A stretch of 64,000 bases of DNA from Candidatus Gugararchaeum adminiculabundum (GCA_902384795.1 CABMDC010000007.1:62001-126000), one strand, 5' to 3'; numbered from the stretch's first letter, positions 7,290 to 26,989 are shown. Numbers and translations are program-made. The notes: generated by a model not told the origin, from the sequence alone.

Positions 7290-8006
7290 TCATGGATTAG
7301 TTTTGATTCCAAATATTTCTTCTGCCAACACTAGAACATCATGCACGTCGCCTTCCAGGTATTTTTGGAAGTTGGGGTTCTTGCTTTTCCATAGCTCGTA
7401 AATCGTTCTGCCCTTGTCTGCCGAAGTAGTTCCCTGCGCCAGCTCTTTTACCCTCATCAGGTCTAGGTGCCTGAACATTTCGTGGTTTACCGCGCTTTGA
7501 AGAGATTTGTACTTTGCCGGAGCCTTGTCGTGTTCCGCAATGGCAAACCTTAGGGGGTGCATTAGGTCAAGGATGTAGGCGCGAGTGCACGCATCTTTGA
7601 GCGCCCAGTACTCTTTAGGGAAAGCGTTAACTTTTCCCAGCTTCTTGTTGTAGTCATCATACCATTTCAGCTTAAGGTTTAGGAGAGGGAAATCATAGCC
7701 TGAAATATTGTACCCCAAGAGCACTAATGGTTTTACTACGTTCATGTATTTTGCTGCCTCGTTCATCAGCTCTATTTCTGCCTCGTCAGAATCATCCTTT
7801 AAAGTGAAAATTTCAGACTCAATCTTATAACCAACCCGTCTGGACACGCCTATCCCAAGAAGCCGCTCGCCTGTCAAGAAGTCGTCGCCCTCCAAGATCT
7901 TCGTCTCCAAATCAATGGAAACAACCCTAAACCAGTTCTCCCTAACCAAGTCAATAATGGACTGGGTGAAAGAGTTGTAATCCAGCTTTTTTGTATCGTA
8001 AGCCAT
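7290..8006 (-). CDS. Predicted 3'-5' exonuclease related to the PolB exonuclease domain (DEDD, RNase H-like)
   Basis: SIDLETK (DxE), LGYNISGYDFPLL (NxxxxD) motifs. Confidence 0.65.
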   Translation of the reverse strand: MAYDTKKLDYNSFTQSIIDLVRENWFRVVSIDLETKILEGDDFLTGERLLGIGVSRRVGYKIESEIFTLKDDSDEAEIELMNEAAKYMNVVKPLVLLGYNISGYDFPLLNLKLKWYDDYNKKLGKVNAFPKEYWALKDACTRAYILDLMHPLRFAIAEHDKAPAKYKSLQSAVNHEMFRHLDLMRVKELAQGTTSADKGRTIYELWKSKNPNFQKYLEGDVHDVLVLAEEIFGIKTNP

Positions 8007-8024
8007 ATAACACACTTTTCCAGA

Positions 8025-8750
8025 TTAAAGTTTCGTTTTCTTTATTTCATCCATCTTCTGATATAGAAGCCTATCGAATTGCACACCAGAAATCTCCAAC
8101 TGTTTGCAGATTTTGTCTAAAACTTCATGTTCGACTTCTTCATATAGCTCCTTCTTCTCCGCAAATCCCCTCGGTAGTTTTATTCCAACTTTCTTGAAGA
8201 TTGATGCAACTCTTGTGTCAAAAGCAACTGCGTTCTCGAGCACTCCCAACGTCATTAAAAAGTCTCTTGCGCTCTTGTGCTTCATGTATCTGAAAGTCCC
8301 GATAATGCTGCCTATCTTTAGTTTATCAGAGTCAAGTTCGCTAACCTGTTTTATCATGTTTTTTGGTCCGCCCTTGAAAGTTTTTAGTATTCTGAAATTG
8401 TACGTCAAAAACTTAGCCTTATTAGCATAATACCTCGTCCCTAGTCGGTATAGTGTCTTCTGGATAATTTCCCTGACCTTTTCCTCGTTCTTTATCCTTT
8501 TCAATCTGTTATAAGAGAGAACTTTATAGAACCAGTTTTCTAACCTTTTGTTATCCTCCATTTTCTCAACTGACGCAGAAGAACCTACGACCATGGCCTG
8601 CCTAACCACAGTAAGCCAAATTTCATTATTATCCATTGTCTTCCAATTGTCTTTTGTAGGAACCTCTGTCTTGCTAAGAAAAAGGTCGCGTATCTTCTTG
8701 AATTTCTTCAAATGCTGTTCGCCTATTTTTAATTCAGTTACTTCAACCAT
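8025..8750 (-). CDS. HhH-GPD/Ogg-like DNA glycosylase-like protein
   Basis: MKHKSARDFLMTLGVLENAVAFDTRV resembles the K..A..FL...G...D.R. core of archaeal Ogg-type glycosylases. Confidence 0.5.
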   Translation of the reverse strand: MVEVTELKIGEQHLKKFKKIRDLFLSKTEVPTKDNWKTMDNNEIWLTVVRQAMVVGSSASVEKMEDNKRLENWFYKVLSYNRLKRIKNEEKVREIIQKTLYRLGTRYYANKAKFLTYNFRILKTFKGGPKNMIKQVSELDSDKLKIGSIIGTFRYMKHKSARDFLMTLGVLENAVAFDTRVASIFKKVGIKLPRGFAEKKELYEEVEHEVLDKICKQLEISGVQFDRLLYQKMDEIKKTKL

Positions 8751-9440
8751 TCAAATCAGCCCAGCTAACTCGCTTATATTATTCAGCTCATAGTCCGCTT
8801 TAAGCCCTTTTACTTTGGGCCATTTTATCTCTTCATCTTCTCCCCATTTTGCCAATGCGGCTTTCATGCCTGCATCCTGGGCTCCTTTAACATCCCTGCC
8901 GATGGAATCCCCAACCATGAGCACTTCATCAGGCTTGACGCCAAATGCTTCGATAGCTTTCAGAAATGGAAGCTTGCTTGGTTTCAGTTCTCCCGTATCA
9001 TCAAAAGTGATTACAACGCTGAAAATTCCGTATAATCCGAGTTTCCTGAGCCTATTTTCGGCTTTGATTTTTGGTGCATCGCTGAGTATGCCCAGAATTA
9101 TTCCTTTTTCTTTTAGCTTGAGGAGTGTTTCCTTGATTTTAGGATATGGTTTGAGGTGCTTCTTTCTCTCGCCCAAATATGCGAGTATTGCGGCTTCTAG
9201 CAGTTCTCTGTCTTCCTTGCCCGTTTTGCTTTTGATGAACTTTTCAAAGGCAGTGTTGTTGTCTATCCCTTCCTGCCAATAACACTGAAACAATTCCTTG
9301 AAGCACTGATCTTCATCCATGTTTAAGCCGGATTTTATCATTGCTTTGGCTGCTGCGCGGGTTGCTTCGCGCTTCATGCTAACAAAATCCGTAAGGGTGT
9401 TGTCCAGGTCGAAAAGGATTGCTTTCAGACAGTTGTTCAT
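8751..9440 (-). CDS. HAD-superfamily hydrolase
   Basis: LFDLDNTLTD, LGILSDAP, MVGDSIGRDVKGAQDAGM motifs. Confidence 0.9.
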   Translation of the reverse strand: MNNCLKAILFDLDNTLTDFVSMKREATRAAAKAMIKSGLNMDEDQCFKELFQCYWQEGIDNNTAFEKFIKSKTGKEDRELLEAAILAYLGERKKHLKPYPKIKETLLKLKEKGIILGILSDAPKIKAENRLRKLGLYGIFSVVITFDDTGELKPSKLPFLKAIEAFGVKPDEVLMVGDSIGRDVKGAQDAGMKAALAKWGEDEEIKWPKVKGLKADYELNNISELAGLI

Positions 9441-9448
9441 GTGGATTC

Positions 9449-10822
9449 TCAGCTCGCACTTTGTTGAATCAATTGATTCAGTTCTACTCTAAGAGTTTTC
9501 TTTACGTAATCTCGAAGCAGGCACTTATCCCTTTCTGTTGATTTTTGCTGGCATTCGAGATCAACGCTTATTATCGATACATCCAACTCTTTATTCAAGT
9601 GCAAAATTGGGTTAAGCCTAAAGTGAGGATTTTTACGGTTGTCCCACATGTCGTCCTTATCGTTAGCAACGATTAGAGCGCATTTGTCACTGGTTTTAGC
9701 CAATGAATAGCAGATTATCTGGTAATAATCGGATGATCCGGGTTGTAGTTTGTATTTAACATCCAGGGGTATGCACAAACCCTTTGCTTTGTTTTGGAGT
9801 AAAATATCAGGCATTATCTTCGGGGGCGTCATGTCTGACCCGGCCTTTACCAACAAATCGCTACTTTTGTTTTGGAGAAGAACCTCCCAGCCATCTTTAT
9901 CCCAGCCCTCTTCTGAATTTATCTCTCGGATGATCTCTGAAACAAAGCATTCGAAAACCCAATTCATGTCTACTAGGAAGTTTACGCCCACCCTATTTTT
10001 TTCAGAATCGTCAGCTCTGAAGCTACTGTAAACATTTTCAGAAATTATCAACTGAGCCAGTTGAAGCATGAACGCATAATGCTGGTTTAACCTATTGCGC
10101 GGCAATCTCCTCAACTCGCTTAGCGTTACTGGTTTGTACGATACCTGCTCACTCAAATCCATTGCAAACCGATTCAATTCGCTTTGAATTGTCGTAAAGC
10201 CCCTCGAACTTTTTTTGACCCAGCTTGGAAGGCGGTGCATGAGTCGGTTTATGCAGTACAGAATAACTTGATTCTCAAGGATATCATAGGTAAGTTCGTC
10301 ATACTGACAGTAAATTCGGCTCTTGTCGCTGAAGTTCGACTGTTCGTTCTTTATGAAATCTATCTGCCCGCGGAGGCGTCTGAGGTTACCTTCTTCGGTT
10401 ACATAGCGCTTAGCCAATCCGATCTTAAGTATTTTTTTTACTTCTTTCGAAAAAAGAAACACAACAAGCGGGAAGAAATGAAAGCCTGGTGGAAGTTCGA
10501 CCTGAACATCCGGATCGAAAAATATCTTTTCTTCGATTTTCTCGCGATATTGGAGGTATTCTAACATCTCGGCTAAGTCGGAATCAACTTTCTGGCTGAC
10601 TTGAATTGTCATGCCCGAAGGCAGTTGAACGATGCCAACAAATGAACTGGGTTTTATTTCGTACTCTCCATCCGCGCAGGGGTATACCTCCAGACGCTTT
10701 TTCAGTTTATCTCGCGTGTAATCCAAGTCGCCTTTAACGAGCTCTTGGTTTTGTTGGTGAACTCGTTGGGCTGGACCATACTCGCGTACCGTCACAACTT
10801 GACAGACTGGTTTATTGCCCAT
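9449..10822 (-). CDS. mcrC: McrC-family restriction nuclease subunit
   Basis: McrC-like architecture; PD-(D/E)XK core MPDILLQNKAKGLCIPLDVKYKL; downstream of McrB-like AAA gene. Confidence 0.85.
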   Translation of the reverse strand: MGNKPVCQVVTVREYGPAQRVHQQNQELVKGDLDYTRDKLKKRLEVYPCADGEYEIKPSSFVGIVQLPSGMTIQVSQKVDSDLAEMLEYLQYREKIEEKIFFDPDVQVELPPGFHFFPLVVFLFSKEVKKILKIGLAKRYVTEEGNLRRLRGQIDFIKNEQSNFSDKSRIYCQYDELTYDILENQVILYCINRLMHRLPSWVKKSSRGFTTIQSELNRFAMDLSEQVSYKPVTLSELRRLPRNRLNQHYAFMLQLAQLIISENVYSSFRADDSEKNRVGVNFLVDMNWVFECFVSEIIREINSEEGWDKDGWEVLLQNKSSDLLVKAGSDMTPPKIMPDILLQNKAKGLCIPLDVKYKLQPGSSDYYQIICYSLAKTSDKCALIVANDKDDMWDNRKNPHFRLNPILHLNKELDVSIISVDLECQQKSTERDKCLLRDYVKKTLRVELNQLIQQSAS

Positions 10823-11963
10823 ATTCACCAAACCACATCTTCACTGTAGCATCTTCCTTAAACTCGTCTCGCATAAGACCGCTAAGCATCTCACCAAGCT
10901 GATCATGATCGAAGAAATAGTACTCTTCGAGCAAGGGAATTAGTTTTCTCCCCCACACCGCGGCGACACCTTCCTCGTCAATGCCTTTTTTCATAAAGAA
11001 TGCGTGACCTAGGGCTTTCTCGCGCCCCAGCTCTCTGTTTTCTTTTATCTTTTCGTTTATTCTGCTCAGAACCTTGCAGAGCAGTTCAACATAGTCTTTT
11101 TTCAGCTTGGAGTTTTCCGAATCAGACAGCCATTTTTCAAGGTAAAATCCGTTTTCGTCTTGTTGCTCCGTGATTATTCTGGGCGGTGTTTCTTCAAAAA
11201 TAAAGCGTCTTCGTAGAGCTATGTCCAAGTGAGCGATACTGGAATCAGCTGTGTTCATAGTGCCAACGATATAGAGGTTTTTGGGTACGCCAAAGCGCGC
11301 CCTAGAATATGGAAGAATGGCGCTAAGTTCTTCATCAGAGCCTAATCGCTTATTGTCCTCTATCAGCGTTATTAGCTCCCCAAACACCTTGGATATGTTT
11401 GCGCGGTTAATCTCGTCTATAATTAAGACAAATCTCTTCTTTTCGTTAAGGTTTTCGAACAACTTCTGTCGCGTATCTTTCGGCATCCTAAAATACTCCT
11501 CGAATAGATTTGCATTCTCGGTATCTATCTGTACTGAAAAATCGTTGATGGATTTTTCTGTCCCTTCCCCAACGTCTATTTTCCACCAATCGCGCCCATT
11601 AATACTTGGACGGATCTGAAATTCTTTAGCGATTACATTAGACGCCGCAGTACTCGGAGCATACGCGACGCCGTCTAACAGTACTTTGTCTTTTATTGGA
11701 TCATACGTCGCAGTGAAAGTCTTACTTTTGTACTTGCCTATAACCTTCTTCAGTCTAGACGGCTGATCTGGCATCACCGCAGAAAGTGCACGAAGACACA
11801 TCTCTTTGAATATGCCATCCCGCCGGATTATTCTACCATCTTCGTTTGGTCTAAATCCCTCAACAAAATCCTCGTAAGCGAGCGAGGGATGAAAAGTTAC
11901 GAACTCGATCTGTCCGTTTTCACATAACTTTTCATAGTCTTTGTCTATATTTTTTTCATCCAT
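10812..11963 (-). CDS. McrB-like AAA+ C-terminal module (Walker B/sensor) lacking Walker A
   Basis: IEFVTFHPSLAYEDFVEGFRP, Walker B FVLIIDEINRANISKVFGEL, GTMNTADSSIAHLDIALRRRF; no P-loop; RBS AGAGGTG before ATG 11963. Confidence 0.85.
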   Translation of the reverse strand: MDEKNIDKDYEKLCENGQIEFVTFHPSLAYEDFVEGFRPNEDGRIIRRDGIFKEMCLRALSAVMPDQPSRLKKVIGKYKSKTFTATYDPIKDKVLLDGVAYAPSTAASNVIAKEFQIRPSINGRDWWKIDVGEGTEKSINDFSVQIDTENANLFEEYFRMPKDTRQKLFENLNEKKRFVLIIDEINRANISKVFGELITLIEDNKRLGSDEELSAILPYSRARFGVPKNLYIVGTMNTADSSIAHLDIALRRRFIFEETPPRIITEQQDENGFYLEKWLSDSENSKLKKDYVELLCKVLSRINEKIKENRELGREKALGHAFFMKKGIDEEGVAAVWGRKLIPLLEEYYFFDHDQLGEMLSGLMRDEFKEDATVKMWFGEYGQ

Positions 11964-11973
11964 AATCACACCT

Positions 11974-13503
11974 CTATTCAAAAACTTTTATGATTGCACC
12001 ATCCCTCAGAACTTTCCCGTAGTGCTTTAGAAACTCACGTAACCTTCCTTCAAATGAGGAATCGGCTTTCTCCCACTTGATGGTCTGGTTGAGAACATCT
12101 TCCGTTTCCGTACCTGTTAGTCCTTCTCTTGCATATCTCGAATACTGCTCTGGTGTCATATTCTTATAACCAATAAATTTACTGGGTCCAAATTTCCCTA
12201 AAGCCCTCGAATAGTACCAATGTTTAAACTGACTTAGCTTGTCAACAAGACCAGTTTCCCATCGTTTACTAGATTCCATTGCCTGATTGAAAACTTGAAT
12301 ATTCGCTCTTACTTCTTCAGCATCTTTAACTAGTTCAAAGCTTGGCTCTTGGTTAGTCCTAAGAGAGGGCGTAAACACTATGGTGGCAACCGCTTTTTCT
12401 CTTGTTTTGAATGTCTTCCCTGTTCCAGGTGGACCGTAGAGAATGAGGTTCAAACTTTCCTTTCCAACTGGAGGCGTACCTTCTCCGTCGGACCTACTTT
12501 CAGAGCCGACATAAGTTCTGAGCAATGGAAACAGTATCCGGAGAGCTTTCAGCGCATCGTCTTTCAAAAGCTCAACTGTTTTTTTGGATAGATAATTCTC
12601 TTTCTTATTGCCCTTGAGTAGAGCGATATGGATGCGCGGATTGGTCACAAGGTTGCTCAAGCGCTTGCTGAAATATTCGTTCCAATTTAAGGGTTTGTAG
12701 CCGCGCAATTCAGTCGTAATGTAAAAATCCTCACGTGCACTAGGCACTATGCCACAGGAGCCCTCCGTTTTACCTTCTTCGTCTTCGGTTTTCTTGTCGT
12801 CGTAGATCACAAGACTACCTGCGCGCTCGAGTTCACTCTTGAACTCGCCACGGCTCTTTTCGTCTTGGAGCAGTTTGAGAAATCTGCTTTTTCCATCACG
12901 TTCCTTGCTATCCGTAGCGATGAAACCAATAGAGTAGTATACCTGCACACGGTCTTCAGAAAAGACCAGCTCTATTTCGAAAGAGTTGTAGTTCGCAGGG
13001 CTCACGCGTGTTTTATAGTAGAATGAAAGAGTGATCCGATTTCTGAAGTATAAATTGCCATCAGAAAAATATTGACCTCCCCCGGAAGGAAGTTCGCTTG
13101 CTTTCAAATCCTCCTCACCTAAAGAACTTTGGATATAATGGGCTGCTTTATTGAGGTCTGCGAAGATATGCTGAACTTGCTTTGAAAAGTCCAAACGCGT
13201 GTGGCAGTACTCGCGTAATATGCTGCGGTAGTTAGTTGGGCTAGTTGGCAATGATTGAAGAAGCTTTTCGAATCCAGCCTTGTCCCCCGATTTAAGGTGA
13301 GTCATAAGTAATTTGTAATAGTCTTTGAGACCTTTTTCCTGCTCAAGCGTGCCTGCCTTCCGTAGAGTCTGGCGAAGATAATCATCGTTATTACCGATCT
13401 CATCACTGAGCTGCATCAAACGCTCAACCTGCTTGTAATCGATATCGCCCAAGATAGCTCCAAGTGTTTTGTTCCCGAAATTTTCGTCTATTTCGTTTGG
13501 CAT
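11974..13503 (-). CDS. McrB-like N-terminal domain plus Walker A, ending in a HWYY/FGPSKFIGYKNMT domain; lacks Walker B
   Basis: LNLILYGPPGTGKTFKTREKA then FKHWYYSRALGKFGPSKFIGYKNMTPEQY; stop before any FVTFHPS or Walker B. Confidence 0.75.
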   Translation of the reverse strand: MPNEIDENFGNKTLGAILGDIDYKQVERLMQLSDEIGNNDDYLRQTLRKAGTLEQEKGLKDYYKLLMTHLKSGDKAGFEKLLQSLPTSPTNYRSILREYCHTRLDFSKQVQHIFADLNKAAHYIQSSLGEEDLKASELPSGGGQYFSDGNLYFRNRITLSFYYKTRVSPANYNSFEIELVFSEDRVQVYYSIGFIATDSKERDGKSRFLKLLQDEKSRGEFKSELERAGSLVIYDDKKTEDEEGKTEGSCGIVPSAREDFYITTELRGYKPLNWNEYFSKRLSNLVTNPRIHIALLKGNKKENYLSKKTVELLKDDALKALRILFPLLRTYVGSESRSDGEGTPPVGKESLNLILYGPPGTGKTFKTREKAVATIVFTPSLRTNQEPSFELVKDAEEVRANIQVFNQAMESSKRWETGLVDKLSQFKHWYYSRALGKFGPSKFIGYKNMTPEQYSRYAREGLTGTETEDVLNQTIKWEKADSSFEGRLREFLKHYGKVLRDGAIIKVFE

Positions 13504-13520
13504 TGGTAGACACCGTTTGA

Positions 13521-14768
13521 TTAATATTTTGCTTCTAAAAGTTCGCGATCTAGCTTCTTCAGCAGATCGATTATTTCGCTCCAATCAGAGTCGTTCATAC
13601 GCCTAGGTTCCTTCGCTAGGTAAAGGAACACTATATCTTTCAAACCCTTAATGTAATGGGTACTTGACCATTCAATTAATTTGTTGTCTAAACCAAGCAA
13701 ACTGCACAGTCTTTCGCTGTTTTTTTGCAGGTGTGCGATTCGCTTTCTGAAATCGTTCTCTTCAGCTTTTCTGAACGGCCATGGTTGAACGTATAACGAG
13801 AGGGAGTTTCCGGAAGATGGTGACTGTACTCCAAAAATAAATTTTTTTGCTGGGTCTGAAATTTCGATATAGGGTATTTTGCGGTTATGTTCGACATCTT
13901 TGTAGATTTCTCCTGAGAACTCATTTTTTCTTTCCTTTAGAATAGAAAGAAAATGCTCAAAAACATTCTGCAGATCGATAGCTACTGATTCTGAATTCGT
14001 TTGATTTGAAGATGCAGATAAAGTGTCGATGATGGTTATAGCGCGTTCTCTTGTTTTGAATGTTTTTCCCGTGCCAGGAGGGCCATAAAGAATGACATTT
14101 AAGCTTTCAATCTCACTACTATTACTCGATTTTGTTGGGATGGATGTGGGCTTTTTTTCGTTTTTAAGTTCCTCGTCTTTGTCAATTCGGTTGAATAATT
14201 GATCTATTTCAATATTTATCGGAACTTCTGGGTGTAAAGGAGCACCGAAATAAGAGAAATAAAACTTTTTGAACTCCTCGAATTGTTCTGTAAACTCAAC
14301 ATAGTCTTTTGACTTATTAAAACCAAAAAATTCAAGCCCAGTTTTAACGCAATTGTTTTTTAACGGAAATTTGTTAATATGCATCCATCCAAATAATTCC
14401 TGCAATGTATTGTCTGCACCTATTTGTTCTATCCAATTAAAACTAAAATCTTGCGCGTTATTCATCTCCGATATTATTTTTTTGATCTCGTGAGGATTGT
14501 TGCGTTTTGCGATTCCATTGGCAACATTACCATTTCGTGAATTTCCAGAGTTCGTTAATAAAAGCAACTGTCTTATTTTCTCTCTTAGTTTCTCGGTATC
14601 GTTTTCTTTTAGTACTTCGTTCACTTGTTGTTGGATCTGCTTCAATGTTTCTCTACAATCCTCAAAATCAAACATTTCTCCTTTACTATGCTCAAACCAA
14701 GCAACGTTCTGTTTACCAATAATTTTCCACTCCTGCAAGATTTTTTTCTGCTTTTCGTTTAATTCCAT
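13521..14768 (-). CDS. Second McrB-like Walker A protein with different N- and C-terminal domains
   Basis: LNVILYGPPGTGKTFKTRERA nearly identical to the neighbour's P-loop; no Walker B. Confidence 0.75.
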   Translation of the reverse strand: MELNEKQKKILQEWKIIGKQNVAWFEHSKGEMFDFEDCRETLKQIQQQVNEVLKENDTEKLREKIRQLLLLTNSGNSRNGNVANGIAKRNNPHEIKKIISEMNNAQDFSFNWIEQIGADNTLQELFGWMHINKFPLKNNCVKTGLEFFGFNKSKDYVEFTEQFEEFKKFYFSYFGAPLHPEVPINIEIDQLFNRIDKDEELKNEKKPTSIPTKSSNSSEIESLNVILYGPPGTGKTFKTRERAITIIDTLSASSNQTNSESVAIDLQNVFEHFLSILKERKNEFSGEIYKDVEHNRKIPYIEISDPAKKFIFGVQSPSSGNSLSLYVQPWPFRKAEENDFRKRIAHLQKNSERLCSLLGLDNKLIEWSSTHYIKGLKDIVFLYLAKEPRRMNDSDWSEIIDLLKKLDRELLEAKY

Positions 14769-14777
14769 GGATTTGCC

Positions 14778-15434
14778 TCACAGTCTCGCAATCTTTCCCG
14801 CATCAGTCAACCGTAGTCCTTCTTCCGTAGTAATCAAATCCATGTCCTTCAATTCATCAATCGCGCGATAGACCATGGCGGGAGATAGCGAACCGTCCAA
14901 TTTGTCCGCCAGATCCTTGATGCTTTCAAACTTGCTCGTCTCAATCTTTTCAAGCAGGGTTTTCTGGCTGTCAGTCAGCCTAAATGACAAGCGCGGGAGC
15001 CAAACAATCGCTTTCTTATCCTCTTCCGGGTTGTAGGCTATTTTCTTCACCAAATCATGGCGCGCATATGCTGCAAACAGCAGCCCTATAGCCTTGGTTT
15101 TGCGCCCGCCGGTGATATTCACGTAAATTTCGTCTTCCTTGGGCTGCATGTCTATTACTTCGACGCACTTTCGGGCAACGCCCACAATGTCGTAAACATC
15201 AGTCTTTACTTCCTTGATATCAATCACTTTGCCCAGGGATTCGCGTATGAGCTGTAGGCTCTCGGACTGCTCCTTATCCGGTTCTTTATCTATTATCAGT
15301 ATAAGGCGGTCAGGCCCAAGCCTCGTAGACGCAAGAAGCACTGGCTCGGGACTGTAAACCGTAGCTATTAGCACCTTTTTTCCCATTACTCCCACGTCTT
15401 TTACTTCTGAATCAGGGTTTATATCCGTTTCCAT
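14778..15434 (-). CDS. Csa3-like CARF-domain wHTH transcriptional regulator
   Basis: N-terminal KVLIATVYSPEPVLLA..., CARF motif IYVNITGGRKTKAIGLLFAAYA, C-terminal winged helix. Confidence 0.8.
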   Translation of the reverse strand: METDINPDSEVKDVGVMGKKVLIATVYSPEPVLLASTRLGPDRLILIIDKEPDKEQSESLQLIRESLGKVIDIKEVKTDVYDIVGVARKCVEVIDMQPKEDEIYVNITGGRKTKAIGLLFAAYARHDLVKKIAYNPEEDKKAIVWLPRLSFRLTDSQKTLLEKIETSKFESIKDLADKLDGSLSPAMVYRAIDELKDMDLITTEEGLRLTDAGKIARL

Positions 15435-16245: not shown

Positions 16246-17391
16246 ATGGATAGCACGATCGAACCGCTTGTTTTCTACGACGTAAGAAACGAAGCCATCG
16301 AGCTTGCAAGGGCTTCCTGTCTGGAGGAGTTCATCTCCATCGTTTGCGACGATGACATGAATCAGCTCCAAGAGTCGTTCTTCAGGACATTGAAGCAAGG
16401 AAAGATCAGCGAATGGCTCAAAAAAAGCGGCTACAGCGAGATGGAACAGGTACTGTCCAAATTCAAATACTCCGATAGGGGGGATTATGCCATGGCGGCA
16501 AAAATCGTGTTTGACTCGCTTTACAAATCATTGCCAGATTTCTCGCAGGTTGTTGGATTTCAGGTGATAAAAAATGAAATAATCAATAATGTATTCGCAT
16601 CGGAAACTTGGAAAGAAGGCGCAGGCAATTCCGAAGGGGCGGCAATACTCCTTTATGGTCCGCCTGGATGCGGGAAAACCTATTTTGCGAGGTCGGTTGC
16701 CGGGCAGACGAAAAGAATTTTCCTGAACAAAAGCGCGGCTGAACTCGCACGCTGGAGTTCAGGTACAATGATAAGTTCATGCTTCAATATTGCGCGGAAA
16801 ATCGGCAATTCCGTGCTTTTTATTGACGAAATAGACGCTATCGGAGAAGTGAGAACAATGGCGCGTATGGAATACCTGACCATAAAGCTGCTGACCGAGC
16901 TTGACGGAGGAGAACCAAATATGGGAGTTCTGGTAATCGGAGCTACGAACTACCCTTGGAACATGGATCCAGTGCTGATGCGCAGCGGAAGGTTTGATTC
17001 GAATTTCTACGTCCCCACTCCGAGCTATGAAGATAGAATACAGTTGTTTGAGTTTTATAGCAAAAAGTTTCCAAACTCAGAAGATGTAGACTTCGAAAAG
17101 CTGGCGCAAAATACCCGGTTCTACTCGCACTCTGACATAAAACTCGCGTGCACCGAAGCGCTGAGGATTGCGTTTAGGAGGACTGCCAGCACTACGGACA
17201 GGCAAAAAGTTGCGCAAGAAGACTACGCGAATGCGCTGAAGAAAATCAATCCGATTTCGATAATTTGGTTCAAGCATGCGGCGAGCCTTTACTTTGATAA
17301 AGAATTCGGAGAAGCGTTCAAGCCGATGATGGAACAGGTAAAGGAATTCAAGGAACACTACGATAAGAAAAACGATTCCTCGTTTTTGTAG
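16246..17391 (+). CDS. AAA+ ATPase, FtsH/Cdc48-like
   Basis: Walker A LLYGPPGCGKT, Walker B VLFIDEIDAIG, SRH ATNYPWNMDPVLMRSGRFD. Confidence 0.9.
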   Translation: MDSTIEPLVFYDVRNEAIELARASCLEEFISIVCDDDMNQLQESFFRTLKQGKISEWLKKSGYSEMEQVLSKFKYSDRGDYAMAAKIVFDSLYKSLPDFSQVVGFQVIKNEIINNVFASETWKEGAGNSEGAAILLYGPPGCGKTYFARSVAGQTKRIFLNKSAAELARWSSGTMISSCFNIARKIGNSVLFIDEIDAIGEVRTMARMEYLTIKLLTELDGGEPNMGVLVIGATNYPWNMDPVLMRSGRFDSNFYVPTPSYEDRIQLFEFYSKKFPNSEDVDFEKLAQNTRFYSHSDIKLACTEALRIAFRRTASTTDRQKVAQEDYANALKKINPISIIWFKHAASLYFDKEFGEAFKPMMEQVKEFKEHYDKKNDSSFL

Positions 17392-17416
17392 AAATATTTG
17401 TGGATAAGGTGGCACT

Positions 17417-17917
17417 ATGGAAAAATTAGGCAACAATAAAGCAAAGCACTCGAAAGTTAAATCCTCTGTTGCAAAAGCGCACAGTAACCAAAAAATTAAG
17501 CGGTTCTCGGGATTGCTGACAAAAGCCCCGTCTAGCAGTCCAAAGGTTTACTATGCAGAAATACGTTATGCGCGAGGATATGAATATTTCAACTTACATA
17601 AATGGAATAACGCTCTCCGAGACTTTCTCGAAGTCGCCAGACTTACCCCTAGGCGGCGGGATGCGCACTGTTGCGCTGGAGTCGCTTATCTCATCCTAAA
17701 AAAATACAGAAAAGCGATTGTAGAGTTCAGCAAAGAAATAACACTCCGACCTGGTGATTGGCATGCGTACAACAACAGAGCGAACGCTTACAACAAAATT
17801 GGGAGGCATGACCTTGCCCTAAAAGATTGCGAAAGCGCATTGAAACGTGGAGCCGAGGAACGATTCGTGAGATACAACCGCGATTTGGCGCGGAAGTTTG
17901 GGGAAATTGAAGAATAA
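17417..17917 (+). CDS. TPR-repeat protein
   Basis: Repeats YYAEIRYARGYEYFNLHKWNNALRDFLEVARLTP / AYNNRANAYNKIGRHDLALKDCESAL. Confidence 0.75.
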   Translation: MEKLGNNKAKHSKVKSSVAKAHSNQKIKRFSGLLTKAPSSSPKVYYAEIRYARGYEYFNLHKWNNALRDFLEVARLTPRRRDAHCCAGVAYLILKKYRKAIVEFSKEITLRPGDWHAYNNRANAYNKIGRHDLALKDCESALKRGAEERFVRYNRDLARKFGEIEE

Positions 17918-17927
17918 GGTGAAGAAT

Positions 17928-18284
17928 ATGGATAAGAAAAATGGGATAACGTTGATAATCGGAGGGAACGCGAGTGGCAAAACTCGGCTGCTGAAAGAGT
18001 TGAGGGAGATTGCAGGCGGAAATGCTGAATATTACAATTACCGCGAAACCGAGGATTTGCTCGCGCAGGAAATGGATAAGGAAAAATTCAGCACACTTTT
18101 GGTTGATGAGCCGTTTATCACGGGGCAGATTGGCGGAAAGCCAATTGCCAAGTTCATCATGCAACTGGCAAAGAAAAGAAAGGTAGTGGTGGCAACCTCT
18201 TTTGATGGCGCAGAGTTTCTCTTTTCAGCTGCGGGAGATTTGAAGTTGGAAATATTTTACATGTCGTATTGGCACGCGAGGTGA
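17928..18284 (+). CDS. Minimal P-loop NTPase-like protein (paralogue of 19087-19986 N-terminus)
   Basis: Walker A IIGGNASGKTR, Walker B TLLVDEPF. Confidence 0.65.
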   Translation: MDKKNGITLIIGGNASGKTRLLKELREIAGGNAEYYNYRETEDLLAQEMDKEKFSTLLVDEPFITGQIGGKPIAKFIMQLAKKRKVVVATSFDGAEFLFSAAGDLKLEIFYMSYWHAR

Positions 18285-19052: not shown

Positions 19053-19086
19053 AAGTCCCTGAGGAGTAGGGATATGGGTGAAAATT

Positions 19087-19986
19087 ATGGATAAGAAAAA
19101 TGAAATAACGCTGATAATCGGCGGGAGCGCGAGCGGGAAAACCAGATTGCTTAAAGCAATGAAGGAAGCGGCTGGGGAAAACGCGGAATATTATTATTGC
19201 AATATAGAAGAAAAACTTCCGCAGATTAATGGAGGTTCCTGCGCGCTTCTTTTGGATGAGCCGTTTGGCTGTCTTGATGCCAAGCCGGTTGCGGCACGCA
19301 TTGGGCGATTGGCAAGAAAAAGAAAAGTAGTCGTGGCGACCGCCCTTTCGGAAGCGCGGGAATTCGGCTGGGATAAAGCGGAACTGAATGTAATAGAGCT
19401 GAAAGGGCATGAAATCACGTCCGAGCGAATGAGCGTCATTTGGCAGGGCGTTTCAATTGTTGAGAGGGAAAAATCGCTTTTTAGAGCCACTGATATCGGA
19501 TACCTTGAAGACGTGAAGAAAGAGATTGAAGAGCGCGGAGTGAATGTGAACGCCCGTGATTTGGGACTGAGAACCCTGCTGCATTATGCAGATAAACCGG
19601 AGATAGCGGAGTATCTGATAAAAAAAGGGGCGATGGTTGATGCAAGAGATTCTTTTGGCGCAACTCCGCTCTACGATGCTGCGTTCGGAGGAAAAGCTGG
19701 AGTAGTAAGAGTTCTACTGAAGCATGGAGCCGATCCAAACGCAAAGGGACCTGGAAGGAGTACACCACTGCATGAAGTGTGCCATATGTCTGACGTAAAA
19801 ATGAAAGGTGCAGATTATTTGGAAGTTGCGAAACTACTAGTTAAGGCAGGCGCTGATGTAAACGCAAGGAACAGTTGTGGGTATCCGCTGCTTTATTTTG
19901 CAAAAAACAAGAAAGTGATTAAATTCCTGAAAAAGCACGGGGCAAAAGCCAATAAAAGCAGAGCTAGTAAAGATAAACACCGGTGA
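19087..19986 (+). CDS. Mini P-loop NTPase fused to ankyrin repeats
   Basis: IIGGSASGKTR / ALLLDEPF, then ankyrin repeats (FGATPLYDAAFGGKAGVVRVLLKHGADPNAK). Confidence 0.75.
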   Translation: MDKKNEITLIIGGSASGKTRLLKAMKEAAGENAEYYYCNIEEKLPQINGGSCALLLDEPFGCLDAKPVAARIGRLARKRKVVVATALSEAREFGWDKAELNVIELKGHEITSERMSVIWQGVSIVEREKSLFRATDIGYLEDVKKEIEERGVNVNARDLGLRTLLHYADKPEIAEYLIKKGAMVDARDSFGATPLYDAAFGGKAGVVRVLLKHGADPNAKGPGRSTPLHEVCHMSDVKMKGADYLEVAKLLVKAGADVNARNSCGYPLLYFAKNKKVIKFLKKHGAKANKSRASKDKHR

Positions 19987-19992
19987 AACGGC

Positions 19993-22803
19993 ATGAAACT
20001 TTCAGACCTAAACAAAGAGCAACTCGCAGCCGCCACGCACGACGGCAATGTTTTCGTATTGGGCAATCCGGGAACCGGCAAGACCAAGCTCATAACTGGC
20101 CGCGTGCTTCACCTGCTGGAAAAGGGAGTCGCGCCCGAAGACATCCTTTGCATGACATTCACCATAAAAGCAACGGATCAATTGCGCGAAAAGCTTAATG
20201 AAAACCTTGGCAAGGAGCACCCAGAAGTGAATGATGTGTGTGTGGAAACATTCCACTCCTTTTCCTTCAATTCCGTGAAGCCATTTCTGGAACAGCAAGG
20301 AGTAAAGACTAACGTGCTCAGGGAAGGAATGCAGCGGTTCCTGCTTTTCAAAACAATAAAGAAGCTGGACATATTTGACTATTCTGACGAATATTTGGTG
20401 GAAATTGCAGCCGACTTCTCTTCTAAACTCTCTTATCTCAAATCATTCGGAGCCAAAAAGAACTACAGCGCAAAGGACATAATTGCCAAGCTCACCGAGT
20501 TATACGGGGAGAAAAAAGTAAAGCCGGAAGAAGAGAAAATTAAGGCGCTTGTGCCATACATTCCACGTATCCTGAAAGAATACGATGAGGAAAAGGCAAA
20601 GCACGGGATTGATTACACTGACATGCTCCTATTTTTCAAAGAACAACTTAACAAAGAACCGATGCATTTTGAGCACGTGATTGTTGACGAACTGCAGGAT
20701 GCGAACGAATTGCAGGCGGATATTGTTCTCAAGCTCGCTGAAAAAGGCATCTACTTTGTTGTCGGCGACAGGAAGCAGAGTATTTTCCGCTTTCAGGGCG
20801 CGTCGGTCAACACTTTTCAGAGATTTAAGAAAAAGGCAAAGGAATTCGTGCTTGTGAAAAACTACCGTTCAACTGATGAAATTTTGCAGTATGCAAAGGA
20901 ATACCTCATCCAGAAAACAGACTCGTACAAGGATGAACTGAAGGGGCTGTCAAGCGAGAAAAAGGGCAGCAAACCTGCCATCCTAAGCGCCGAAGGCGAC
21001 ACTTCTGTTGTGATTCATTTCATAGACAAGATGCTGAAGAAGCATGGAGAAGTTGCGATAATCGCGCTCAGGCATGCGCAGCTCAGGGAAGTTGCCGACA
21101 TGCTTGATCTTCTTGGCAAGGAATACACCATAACCGGCACTCGAAACTCCACTTCAGAGTACACGAAAGAGTGCATCACTGACTTGATTAATGTGCTACT
21201 GAACAAGGATAAGGATAGTTTCCTGCGAGTATTGGCTTCGCCGTTTGTGAATGTCAGTTTCAGAGATGTGATTGAGCTAAAAGAGGAGATGGTTGAGAAA
21301 GACATAACCGACATAGAAAAACTCAGGGGAAAGCCGGTGCTAAAAGGCTTTTTTGCCATGTACGACCGATTCAAGGAAAGCAGCGCCACGATGTACAAAT
21401 CCTTTGGCATTCTCTTTGACCAGTTTTTGCTCCCTTCTGCCTTGAGCCTGGGCAAGGATCAGTTCCTCACTACAAACGGCATCTACTCCTCTGTGCGCGA
21501 GTACTTTGAGGAAGCTGTTTTCACCAGGCACAATGACCTGATTGATTACATCTCCATTTCAAGCGAGATTTACGAGCTCGTAATCGGAGAAGAAGAGAGC
21601 AAGATAAAACTCTTCACAGTCCACTCGGCAAAAGGTAAGGAGTTTGAGTCGGTCATTTACATGCCGTCAAAAGGCGGAAGCGGTACAAAATTCATAGAAT
21701 GGACTTTTGACGGGATGATTTTGCAGGACTATGACATAACCGAGGATTTGAATTTTGAGGAGTTCAAAGTGGATTTTGTTGCCATGACCAGGGCAATGAA
21801 CGAGCTTACGGTCATAGGCAAGCCTACCTACTATTTGGAGGGAGTTTCTTCCAAGATTGATTCAACCGAGATACCAAATCTTGAGACATTGAATCCGGAA
21901 ACGAACACGCAGTTATTCAACCTCTATTCGCATATTTTGCCTCTGCTTCAGGAGTGCAAATATGATTCCGCGATTACGGAGATAAACGGGCTGCGCAAAA
22001 AGAGGCCAATTGTTTTGGATTGGCTGCTGAAATACGCAGATGACCGAAGGCGCGCAAACAAGAGCTATTCCTACTCCTACTTCAAATCATTTTTAGATTG
22101 CCCTCGCAAGTTCCTTTTTACCCAATTGCTCGAGGTGAACGCCTTTGAGCCGAGCACAGGAGCGATGGATTTCGGCACTGCTGTGCACGATGCGCTTGAA
22201 ACCATGAGCAAGAAAGGGACTGTTTCCTTAGACCACATAAAAGACAAGAAGGTCAGGGATGCAGTTGCAAACGCGTTCCTTTGTGAAGCCGAACTTTTGG
22301 AGAAGTTGAAGGCGGAAACCTCCAAGTTCGTGAGCGCGGAAGGAGATTACACAGTTCCTTTGTCTGAATTCCTTGGGAAGAAATGCGAAGGAAAGATACA
22401 CGGGAAAGTTGACAAGATTTTCGAGGCCAACGGGAAGACGGTAATTGTTGACTATAAAACAAGCGCAGGCGGTGATGCGGACAGCAATCAGCTGCATCTT
22501 TACCGCTATCTTTACAGCACTGAGAAGAAGATTAAGGATATTGAGTCGATTCTTCCTTACTTCTACTTCGTTTATGTGCGCGACAATCCTGTTAAAAGCG
22601 AAAGTGGGCGCGGGCATAAAATTGCCGGTGCGCAAAGCGCCAAATACGCAGAGAAACTTCAAGAGATGCGCTCCGCTGTGGAGCAGATTGCGCTTGGAGA
22701 TCCGGTTGTTTTTCTTTCAAAGAATGAAAAGGGATGCGACAGATGTCCCGCTAAATTGTTGTGTGAACGTTTAGAGTGGGAGAAGAGAGGGCAATCAGAG
22801 TAG
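19993..22803 (+). CDS. UvrD/PcrA-type SF1 helicase with C-terminal PD-(D/E)XK (Cas4/AddB-like) nuclease domain
   Basis: NKEQLAAATHDGNVFVLGNPGTGKT, VDELQDANELQ, QSIFRFQGA, VAMTRAMNELTV; GKTVIVDYKTS and C-terminal Cys cluster. Confidence 0.9.
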   Translation: MKLSDLNKEQLAAATHDGNVFVLGNPGTGKTKLITGRVLHLLEKGVAPEDILCMTFTIKATDQLREKLNENLGKEHPEVNDVCVETFHSFSFNSVKPFLEQQGVKTNVLREGMQRFLLFKTIKKLDIFDYSDEYLVEIAADFSSKLSYLKSFGAKKNYSAKDIIAKLTELYGEKKVKPEEEKIKALVPYIPRILKEYDEEKAKHGIDYTDMLLFFKEQLNKEPMHFEHVIVDELQDANELQADIVLKLAEKGIYFVVGDRKQSIFRFQGASVNTFQRFKKKAKEFVLVKNYRSTDEILQYAKEYLIQKTDSYKDELKGLSSEKKGSKPAILSAEGDTSVVIHFIDKMLKKHGEVAIIALRHAQLREVADMLDLLGKEYTITGTRNSTSEYTKECITDLINVLLNKDKDSFLRVLASPFVNVSFRDVIELKEEMVEKDITDIEKLRGKPVLKGFFAMYDRFKESSATMYKSFGILFDQFLLPSALSLGKDQFLTTNGIYSSVREYFEEAVFTRHNDLIDYISISSEIYELVIGEEESKIKLFTVHSAKGKEFESVIYMPSKGGSGTKFIEWTFDGMILQDYDITEDLNFEEFKVDFVAMTRAMNELTVIGKPTYYLEGVSSKIDSTEIPNLETLNPETNTQLFNLYSHILPLLQECKYDSAITEINGLRKKRPIVLDWLLKYADDRRRANKSYSYSYFKSFLDCPRKFLFTQLLEVNAFEPSTGAMDFGTAVHDALETMSKKGTVSLDHIKDKKVRDAVANAFLCEAELLEKLKAETSKFVSAEGDYTVPLSEFLGKKCEGKIHGKVDKIFEANGKTVIVDYKTSAGGDADSNQLHLYRYLYSTEKKIKDIESILPYFYFVYVRDNPVKSESGRGHKIAGAQSAKYAEKLQEMRSAVEQIALGDPVVFLSKNEKGCDRCPAKLLCERLEWEKRGQSE

Positions 22804-25165: not shown

Positions 25166-26914
25166 TTAAACAGTTGCACTATTGATAAAAATTTCGAGTT
25201 GTGATTTACCTGCAGCTTTGAATACGGATTCGATAAATGCACCCGTTTCTTTTAGAGCTTTTGTTACTTCTTCAGTATTTCTAAGACCGCCTGACTTATT
25301 TAATGGAACTAGTAATTTATCTCTGGTGGGTAAAAATAATTCTACCACTGGACCCCATAGTTTTTCATAATCTTCAAGCGATTTCATCGTTTTGAATTTG
25401 AGAGTAAATGGATTAGGTATTTGCTTATCCAGAATTGTTTCCATGGCAGCACCTATAGCTGCGCTTAGAATAAGAATTGAACCACGCTCTCTAAAAAATT
25501 CAAGCGAATCCTTATCGGACTGGCTTAGTGCCACGCCACTTTCCTCTTTTTGGACCAAGCTTAACTTGTAGTTTCGAATTGCGCGATCTAGCGAATACAC
25601 AAAAACTAGGTGCTCGGCGTGAGTATTTTCATTATACAGTTTTGGATATTCTTTATCTGATAGCCATATATCGGATTTTTTGTGATAAGCAATTTCTGGT
25701 TTCTGATGGAATGAAGCTAACGCTTGGGCAACTGATTCAGAAGGGAGCAACGTGAGTTTTGAATCGTAGTTCTCTATTCCGCGCCTTCCGCCTAGATAAA
25801 GTAATTTTGGGTATTTTTCTTTGAACTCAGCTCGGAGCCTCTGCTGAACAGGATGATTACTTCTAAAATCAGCTGCTTCCAGTTTGTTTTGGCTGTTGTT
25901 GTAGCGGACTATATCTAGAACAATATCGGACTTGGAACATTTAATAAAACGCGCTTGGACCATCGCTAGTTTATCCGGCGGGTTAGTAAGATCAGAAATT
26001 GCACCAGTAGTTTGCGCGCCATTAACGATGGATATCCCTTCAATCGAAAGCTTTTTCCCATCACTGGATGGAACGAAATTATTCACAAGAGCGGATATCC
26101 CATTATTAAACGCCCAGAAGTTTTCTGGTGACTGAACTGCCGAGTCCTTGATTGCGGAATTTATATTAGAATCTCCTCGTCTAAGACCCAGGAAATCGCG
26201 TAAATTCGCGGAGAATAGTTTTTTCTCATGTTTTTTGTATAAATCATATAACCAAGATGCCGGTACAGTGGTTGAATAAGCCTCCCACGCATGAGATTTA
26301 ATTAAATGCCCTCCGGGAATATCAACTTCAAATTTTTCATTTACGAGAATTGGGGTTTGCGTAGAGTTATACCATTCTGCTAGCGTATTTAATCCGACTT
26401 CCACCACAGTTACCTCGATAGAAACTGATGGATAATTGGATTTGAGAAGACTGCTCGCAGTTTTCGCTACTTGGGCCAATTCGTTGGCAGAGTTTTTTGA
26501 CTCTGCTATATTGTGCGCATACCAAAAAGTTAAGTTATCAATCTCACCGGCATTCAATGAATCTCTCAGAGCCTTGGCGTGTGGACGGAGACGCTCTGGG
26601 AGATCGTCTATGTTGCTTGCAAGCAACCAAGACGCAGCAGTATTTAGATCTGCTGCTTTGTTGGATGGAGCCGCTTCCTTCTTTGTTTCTGAGATATATG
26701 ACTGACCGATAATTGCGATCCCACCTTCTCGATCTGTATAGACGAGATCACATTTTTTATCATCAGGACCATCCACTAGACATTCGGCAGCTACTCCGTG
26801 GATGTCTTCTAGATTCAATCTCAACTCTAAAGCATAAAGTAGGAGAGCGTTTCTGCCATAAACCTTTAGGTCACTTCTATTGTTGAATGCAGGTATTACT
26901 GGATTTTCAACCAT
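25166..26914 (-). CDS. AIPR-family (abortive phage infection) protein
   Basis: ENFWAFNNGISALVNNF...ISIVNGAQTTGAI signature. Confidence 0.8.
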   Translation of the reverse strand: MVENPVIPAFNNRSDLKVYGRNALLLYALELRLNLEDIHGVAAECLVDGPDDKKCDLVYTDREGGIAIIGQSYISETKKEAAPSNKAADLNTAASWLLASNIDDLPERLRPHAKALRDSLNAGEIDNLTFWYAHNIAESKNSANELAQVAKTASSLLKSNYPSVSIEVTVVEVGLNTLAEWYNSTQTPILVNEKFEVDIPGGHLIKSHAWEAYSTTVPASWLYDLYKKHEKKLFSANLRDFLGLRRGDSNINSAIKDSAVQSPENFWAFNNGISALVNNFVPSSDGKKLSIEGISIVNGAQTTGAISDLTNPPDKLAMVQARFIKCSKSDIVLDIVRYNNSQNKLEAADFRSNHPVQQRLRAEFKEKYPKLLYLGGRRGIENYDSKLTLLPSESVAQALASFHQKPEIAYHKKSDIWLSDKEYPKLYNENTHAEHLVFVYSLDRAIRNYKLSLVQKEESGVALSQSDKDSLEFFRERGSILILSAAIGAAMETILDKQIPNPFTLKFKTMKSLEDYEKLWGPVVELFLPTRDKLLVPLNKSGGLRNTEEVTKALKETGAFIESVFKAAGKSQLEIFINSATV

Positions 26915-26989
26915 ATAATCTCCCAATTGCTATAATAGCGAGATTAAGAATATAACATTTCCTCTCACTCGCATGAGGAGCAACGCTTC

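Follow-up and report, generated by a model that had tools for sequence, protein, structure and literature searches.

Can the GTPase module of a McrB-type restriction motor be divided between separate polypeptides and still form a complete nucleotide site? This question is raised by a locus of Candidatus Gugararchaeum adminiculabundum that lies within a 64,000-nucleotide (nt) stretch of DNA, hereafter the window (GCA_902384795.1 CABMDC010000007.1:62001-126000). Five adjacent minus-strand genes at 9449-15434 encode a CARF protein with a winged helix-turn-helix domain (CARF-wHTH), three chains of 415, 509 and 383 amino acids (aa), named A1, A2 and B here, and the nuclease subunit McrC. A1 and A2 each have a P-loop, and the Walker B motif is on B. 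The locus probably encodes a McrBC variant in which the GTP site is assembled in trans, interchangeable specificity subunits with their own Walker A sharing a single Walker-B subunit. The relevant features are the following.

13521-14768, minus strand: A1, putative Walker-A subunit, 415-aa open reading frame (ORF) with a McrB-type N-terminal helical domain, a P-loop and a 179-residue tail without Walker B (ORF and sequence)
14061-14084, minus strand: P-loop GPPGTGKT of A1, residues 229-236, followed by the aromatic residue F (sequence)
11974-13503, minus strand: A2, putative Walker-A subunit, 509-aa ORF with an N-terminal domain, a P-loop and a 145-residue tail without Walker B
12412-12435, minus strand: P-loop GPPGTGKT of A2, residues 357-364, followed by F (sequence)
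12007-12339, minus strand: C-terminal domain of A2, residues 389-499, ..FGPSKFIGYKNM.. (tblastn E=6e-8 to 4e-3, alignment)
11969-11974, minus strand: Shine-Dalgarno sequence GAGGTG of B, overlapping the A2 stop codon
10812-11963, minus strand: B, putative Walker-B subunit, 383 aa, beginning at beta-2 of the McrB AAA+ module and lacking a P-loop (match to McrB in the PDB, AAA_5 profile, AlphaFold2 (AF2), Foldseek)
11883-11903, minus strand: FVTFHPS, the McrB beta-2 element, B residues 21-27 (F24 and H25 invariant and T23 near-invariant in the alignment)
11559-11762, minus strand: insert of about 70 aa in B between beta-2 and Walker B, residues ~68-135 (Pfam DUF4357 E=1.1, alignment, low predicted local distance difference test score (pLDDT))
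11406-11429, minus strand: Walker B VLIIDEIN, B residues 179-186 (D183/E184 invariant)
11244-11255, minus strand: NxxD signature NTAD, B residues 237-240 (invariant columns)
B residues 249-254, minus strand: arginine-finger motif ALRRRF, after NTAD (invariant columns)
9449-10822, minus strand: McrC nuclease subunit, 457 aa, its start overlapping the end of B by 11 nt (Pfam McrBC E=6.3e-43, PD...DxK motif)

A first-pass annotation of the window had described two adjacent chains with nearly the same P-loop and no Walker B, and a third chain that lacks a P-loop, starts by the next McrB element and has Walker B and arginine motifs. The sequences are as described, and the third chain, B, matches McrB structures in the PDB with E=3.2e-48. 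The P-loop is LNVILYGPPGTGKTFKTRERA in the 415-aa chain and LNLILYGPPGTGKTFKTREKA in the A2 ORF when read as 536 aa, and both fit the motif LN[LV]ILYGPPGTGKTFKTRE[KR]A. Neither Walker-A chain stops right at Walker A, 179 (A1) and 145 (A2) residues lying beyond GKT. B starts with ...YEKLCENGQIEFVTFHPSLAYEDFVEGFRP / MDEKNIDKDYEKLCENGQIEFVTFHPSLAYEDFVEGFRP, carries VLIIDEINR (Walker B), MNTAD and ALRRRF, contains no GxxGxGK[ST] anywhere in its sequence, and matches the Pfam AAA_5 profile only from profile position 66 onward. In single-chain McrBs, the P-loop is usually 45-50 residues from FxTFHxS, or about 150 if there is an inserted domain. The start of B is about 20 residues ahead of FxTFHxS, and B therefore lacks just beta-1, the P-loop, alpha-1 and part of the linker. 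Since A2 stops a few residues past its domain at residues 389-499, the cut falls where an inserted domain ends. An AF2 model of B alone has a mean pLDDT of 72.6 with confident AAA+ elements, its template modelling (TM) score on whole McrB is about 0.37 (Foldseek) and its confidence drops around the NxxD region, which is compatible with an absent piece, yet no proof of it.

The lengths of 536 and 389 aa given earlier for A2 and B rest on TTG codons at 13584 and 11981, and the likelier starts are ATG 13503 (509 aa) and ATG 11963 (383 aa). TTG 13584 has no Shine-Dalgarno sequence and is about 60 nt within the upstream gene, while ATG 11963 has GAGGTG 5 nt upstream. The earlier statement that a ribosome-binding site precedes every start is strongly borne out for B, whose 6-nt match is equalled by 1.8% of window ATGs, but less so for A1 and A2, whose 4-nt matches (GAGG, GGTG) are shared by about 24% of window ATGs. 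All three ORFs are intact on the minus strand. The A2 stop and the B start are 10 nt apart, and the two frames differ by +1. Since the three ORFs, McrC and the motifs are colinear in an apparent operon with gaps of 9-17 nt or small overlaps, a chance arrangement is discounted.

In Thermococcus gammatolerans McrB, the GTP site consists of Lys and Thr of Walker A and the following aromatic residue, and it also needs Asp/Glu of Walker B, NxxD, a base-stacking His and arginines of the neighbouring subunit (PMC7680126). In the window, GPPGTGKT-F is on the A chains, and DE, NTAD, GH and RRR are on B, all of them conserved. Judged by motif position, the His of B may correspond to His501 of T. gammatolerans. 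These residues suggest that B alone would not bind a nucleotide in the known way and that A alone would not hydrolyse it. The McrB AAA+ module would thus be cut between alpha-1, just after Walker A, and beta-2, so that each nucleotide site would need two chains. A1 and A2 would each bring a different N-terminal domain together with beta-1, the P-loop and alpha-1, and this segment would dock on B, which would supply beta-2 to beta-5, Walker B, the NxxD loop, the arginine finger and the lid. Since the segment would dock on a single B, B could take either A. The composite protomers would presumably form hexamers, either mixed or alternative, which would recognise different targets while driving the same McrC nuclease. 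This scheme predicts that the chains physically assemble, that the composite site hydrolyses GTP, that the N-terminal domains recognise the target and that the rings are either alternative or mixed.

The split recurs in other archaea. Matches to B were surveyed in 397 genomes of another archaeal phylum, of which 55 had one, and in 188 genomes of the order to which G673 belongs, of which 33 had one, and for most matches in both sets the neighbouring DNA was read; in a further 191 genomes (21 with a match) the survey covered the open frames themselves. A search for homologues of McrB split at the same point found them in G673 and G710, which belong to a different archaeal phylum from the window and have two Walker-A-only chains, a Walker-B chain without a P-loop and McrC. 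The G673 chains are of 259 aa (stopping 15 residues past GKT), 212 aa (stopping 18 past GKT) and 319 aa, followed by McrC; its B begins MDDNLNKKFNEFKQKGYIEFITFHPS..., has Walker B and no P-loop and is preceded by AAGGAGG, and the gene gaps are 1-2 nt. The G710 chains are of 139 aa, 213 aa and 433 aa (LIDEVNIKFSKYMNEGRINFVTFHPS...), followed by McrC, with GGAGG before B. At the junction of G710 (L188 3672-3678, minus strand), one TGA alone separates A2 from B in a shared frame, and the GGAGG is followed by a TTG start. In the window, G673 and G710 alike, B begins 19-21 residues ahead of the beta-2 motif. A third genome, G530, has an A-only chain of 432 aa (L185 2199-3497, plus strand) with a P-loop at 410 and a stop 14 residues past GKT, after alpha-1; it carries an EVE domain (Pfam E=1e-5), shares 55% identity over 418 aa with the A half of G629's single-chain McrB, and adjoins a complete 563-aa McrB with its own P-loop, followed by McrC. 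The other intact loci that were read combine the P-loop and Walker B on a single polypeptide, and all 21 matches of the third survey lie within open frames of 522-1600 aa. Because at least two further archaea, both distant relatives, share it, the split looks like a real modular design rather than a broken gene.

All three split loci have A1 and A2 chains with unrelated N-terminal domains and with P-loop segments that are best mutual matches, the identities being 60% over 50 aa in the window, 71% over 41 aa in G673 and 74% over 43 aa in G710. Over 25 codons of these segments, synonymous differences amount to 71-79% of sites and nonsynonymous ones to 8-13%, indicating that the paired segments are under purifying selection while drift of the DNA is near saturation. 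The conserved segment fits a docking piece that has to match one shared B. The recurrence in G673 and G710, the A-only chain of G530 and the paired P-loops make assembly in trans, as inferred in the first-pass annotation, the best explanation of the locus; the accompanying idea that target recognition resides solely in the A chains is not supported, because the insert in B at residues ~68-135, which is weakly DUF4357-like, may also take part. This insert resembles DUF4357 only weakly and is absent in G166, the genome with the closest McrC.

The same data bear on decay or assembly error, in which one or two ordinary McrB genes were broken by frameshifts or stops and the ORFs are remnants. The closest relatives of the locus are indeed single-chain. 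Among the best 80 relatives of B in the genome collection examined, nearly all are single chains, the exceptions being contig ends, a C-terminal remnant (L042) and the broken genes L019 and L073. G080 has a 415-like N-terminal domain, the P-loop and B joined in one chain of 769-785 aa, and G166 (McrC 42% identical, B core 46-60%) is unbroken across the A/B junction. Such joined relatives, named earlier as a refutation of the split, therefore literally exist; since about 130 other loci including the closest relative are single-chain, the split is derived, and because it recurs elsewhere, the joined relatives show its derived status only. Truly broken McrBs also occur in the data (G166, G369, L019 and L073), and the frames of A2 and B differ in the window as a frameshift would have it. 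The G166 McrB (L106 4032-6298, plus strand) is frame-broken between Walker B and NxxD, and that of G369 (L148 3585-5698, minus strand) inside an EVE domain. G369 was weighed as a further split and is counted as a frameshift because its break is inside the EVE domain and has no clear Shine-Dalgarno sequence. The break in the window looks different from these mid-domain breaks: it coincides with a domain boundary, a strong Shine-Dalgarno sequence is present, and all motifs and McrC are intact. Moreover, the same break with two A chains is found again in G673 and G710, and purifying selection acts on the paired P-loop segments. G673 and G710 have kept the split at identities of 37% for A2 and 41-50% for B, so that decay is improbable there if the split is shared by descent. 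Decay of the window locus is thus unlikely.

Still less likely is that only one A chain works with B, for which the other competes as a regulator or decoy rather than serving as a second specificity, either as a dominant-negative form or for self-protection. The A-only chain of G530 beside a complete McrB would suit such a role, and the CARF-wHTH gene at the head of the operon suggests control. However, both P-loops are fully canonical, and a known reader domain can sit on an extra chain, as EVE does in G530, which is expected of a specificity subunit. Recoding, which would make A2 and B one chain by programmed frameshifting or stop readthrough and the split only apparent, is very improbable: the 10-nt spacing of A2 stop and B start and the single in-frame TGA of G710 would allow it, but the A2/B frame relation is not constant (G673 +2, G710 0, the window +1), inspection by eye shows no slippery motif at the window junction, every B has its own start and Shine-Dalgarno sequence, and A1, with no B behind it, would be left unexplained.

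Several points weigh against assembly of the site in trans. About 130 other McrB loci, including those of the nearest relatives G166 and G080, are single-chain. Readthrough of the one TGA in G710 would yield a full McrB. The full McrB of G530 has its own P-loop, and so its A-only chain has no obviously vacant partner. The codon data do not date the constraint on the window P-loops to after the split, and the window comes from one draft genome of 26 contigs and a single strain.

How often the split arose can be judged from the trees. The McrC tree groups the window with single-chain G166 and G673 with G530/G629, both with full support, and needs three state changes; it rejects grouping the three split systems in one clade (p-AU 1e-98), and a clade of G673 and G710 as well. 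The B-core tree also needs three state changes, and there one clade of split systems is not rejected (p-AU 0.18). The trees thus suggest that the split likely, though not certainly, arose more than once, with re-fusion and McrC exchange as the alternatives to multiple origins.

Comparison with known systems places the locus with McrBC. B and McrC are clear members of the families known from E. coli K-12 and T. gammatolerans (PDB 6UT3-6UT8), and the set has Walker A, Walker B, NxxD, an arginine finger, PD-(D/E)xK and the order mcrB then mcrC in common with them. B has an AAA+ core with Walker B, NxxD (MNxxD) and an arginine finger, and beside it is McrC with DUF2357 and a PD-(D/E)xK nuclease, the only McrC in the genome; McrC is present in 3 of the 303 genomes of the window's own phylum. 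In McrBC, a hexamer driven by GTP activates McrC to cleave modified DNA. Unlike in McrBC, the GTPase module is on two chains, and there are two alternative Walker-A chains for one Walker-B chain. Since a P-loop on the same polypeptide is absent from B and found on the two upstream chains instead, while the set as a whole would work like McrBC, the locus is regarded as a McrBC variant. The tail of A2 and the insert of B are at insert positions known from the census of McrB GTPases with inserted specificity domains, whereas the chain is continuous there in those proteins (PMC11090510). A text search of that census returned no mention of a Walker A/Walker B split, and literature text searches, with subscription papers outside their scope, returned no report of split McrB or AAA+ modules. 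CoCoNuT (CnuB/CnuC), which is marked by NxD and by long coiled coils in both of its subunits, is a different system, because NTAD of B is NxxD and not NxD and there is no coiled-coil family hit above the cut-off. The BsuMI and LlaJI cassettes (YdjA-YdiS, PDB 9A5M) likewise combine McrB-like and McrC-like subunits in a multi-gene cassette and are a distant fold match of B. The AAA+ module is not known to be divided between chains in BsuMI or LlaJI.

Type I restriction systems use alternative HsdS specificity subunits that are no part of the nucleotide site of the motor. By analogy only, the window resembles them in having a shared motor and nuclease core and exchangeable recognition subunits, and differs in that the recognition chain brings Walker A. 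The domains known from the McrB family suggest that the N-terminal domains of A1 and A2 may recognise the target. That of A1 matches single-chain McrBs in G080 (27% over 281 aa) and in haloarchaea (29-43%), and no relative of A1 was found in viral contigs. For the N-terminal domain of A2, homologue searches that included viral contigs and phages found no relative; a likeness to DUF3578/ADAM was suspected by eye and received no support from a profile search. An extension of BLAST matches from the A1 P-loop along its tail onto other McrBs was inspected and judged spurious, and a single-sequence structure prediction of the 509-aa chain (mean pLDDT 38) was not used. Whether swappable or mixed specificity subunits, each with its own Walker A, meet in one ring and give one nuclease several modification specificities in an HsdS-like combinatorial way, with more than one archaeal origin, is an evenly balanced proposition. 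AAA+ modules are treated as indivisible folds, and a trans-assembled site, if real, with beta-1, the P-loop and alpha-1 coming from an exchangeable chain of their own, would mean that a plug-in part can make up the core nucleotide site. Type IV restriction could then become multi-specific by simple means, and there would be a naturally split motor open to reconstitution, in which a change of McrBC specificity could be tested directly by pairing each A with the shared B.

The C-terminal domain of A2 (FGPSKFIGYKNM) is separable, about 110 aa long and complete to a few residues before the stop, and has no Pfam match. Elsewhere it is found on bacterial plasmids as a stand-alone protein or N-terminal to an HNH endonuclease. 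Loci with this type of domain are L090, L091, L092 and L112-L114, the HNH fusion being in L091.

The first gene of the apparent operon is the remaining feature.

14778-15434, minus strand: CARF-wHTH regulator (Csa3-like), 9 nt upstream of A1 (TIGR01884, CARF3--CARF)

It matches NCBIfam TIGR01884 with E=2.3e-19, above the cut-off, and PADLOC CARF3--CARF with E=3.7e-69, and GAGGTG precedes its start. CARF proteins are linked with McrBC-related systems in CoCoNuTs (PMC11090510). The genome was searched for a Cas10 palm domain, as a sign of a type III CRISPR source of a CARF ligand, and none was found, so that a ligand, if any, would come from another source. Another likely defence gene in the window encodes an AIPR-family protein (25166-26926, minus strand; Pfam AIPR E=3e-34). 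A divergent cluster adjoining the locus, at 16246-18284 and 19078-22803, both plus strand, encodes an AAA ATPase, a TPR protein, a small ABC-type P-loop protein, an ankyrin protein and a UvrD helicase with a PD-(D/E)xK nuclease. Downstream of McrC, at 7290-9440 on the minus strand, are genes for a HAD hydrolase, an Ogg-like HhH protein and a protein with a PolB-type exonuclease domain.

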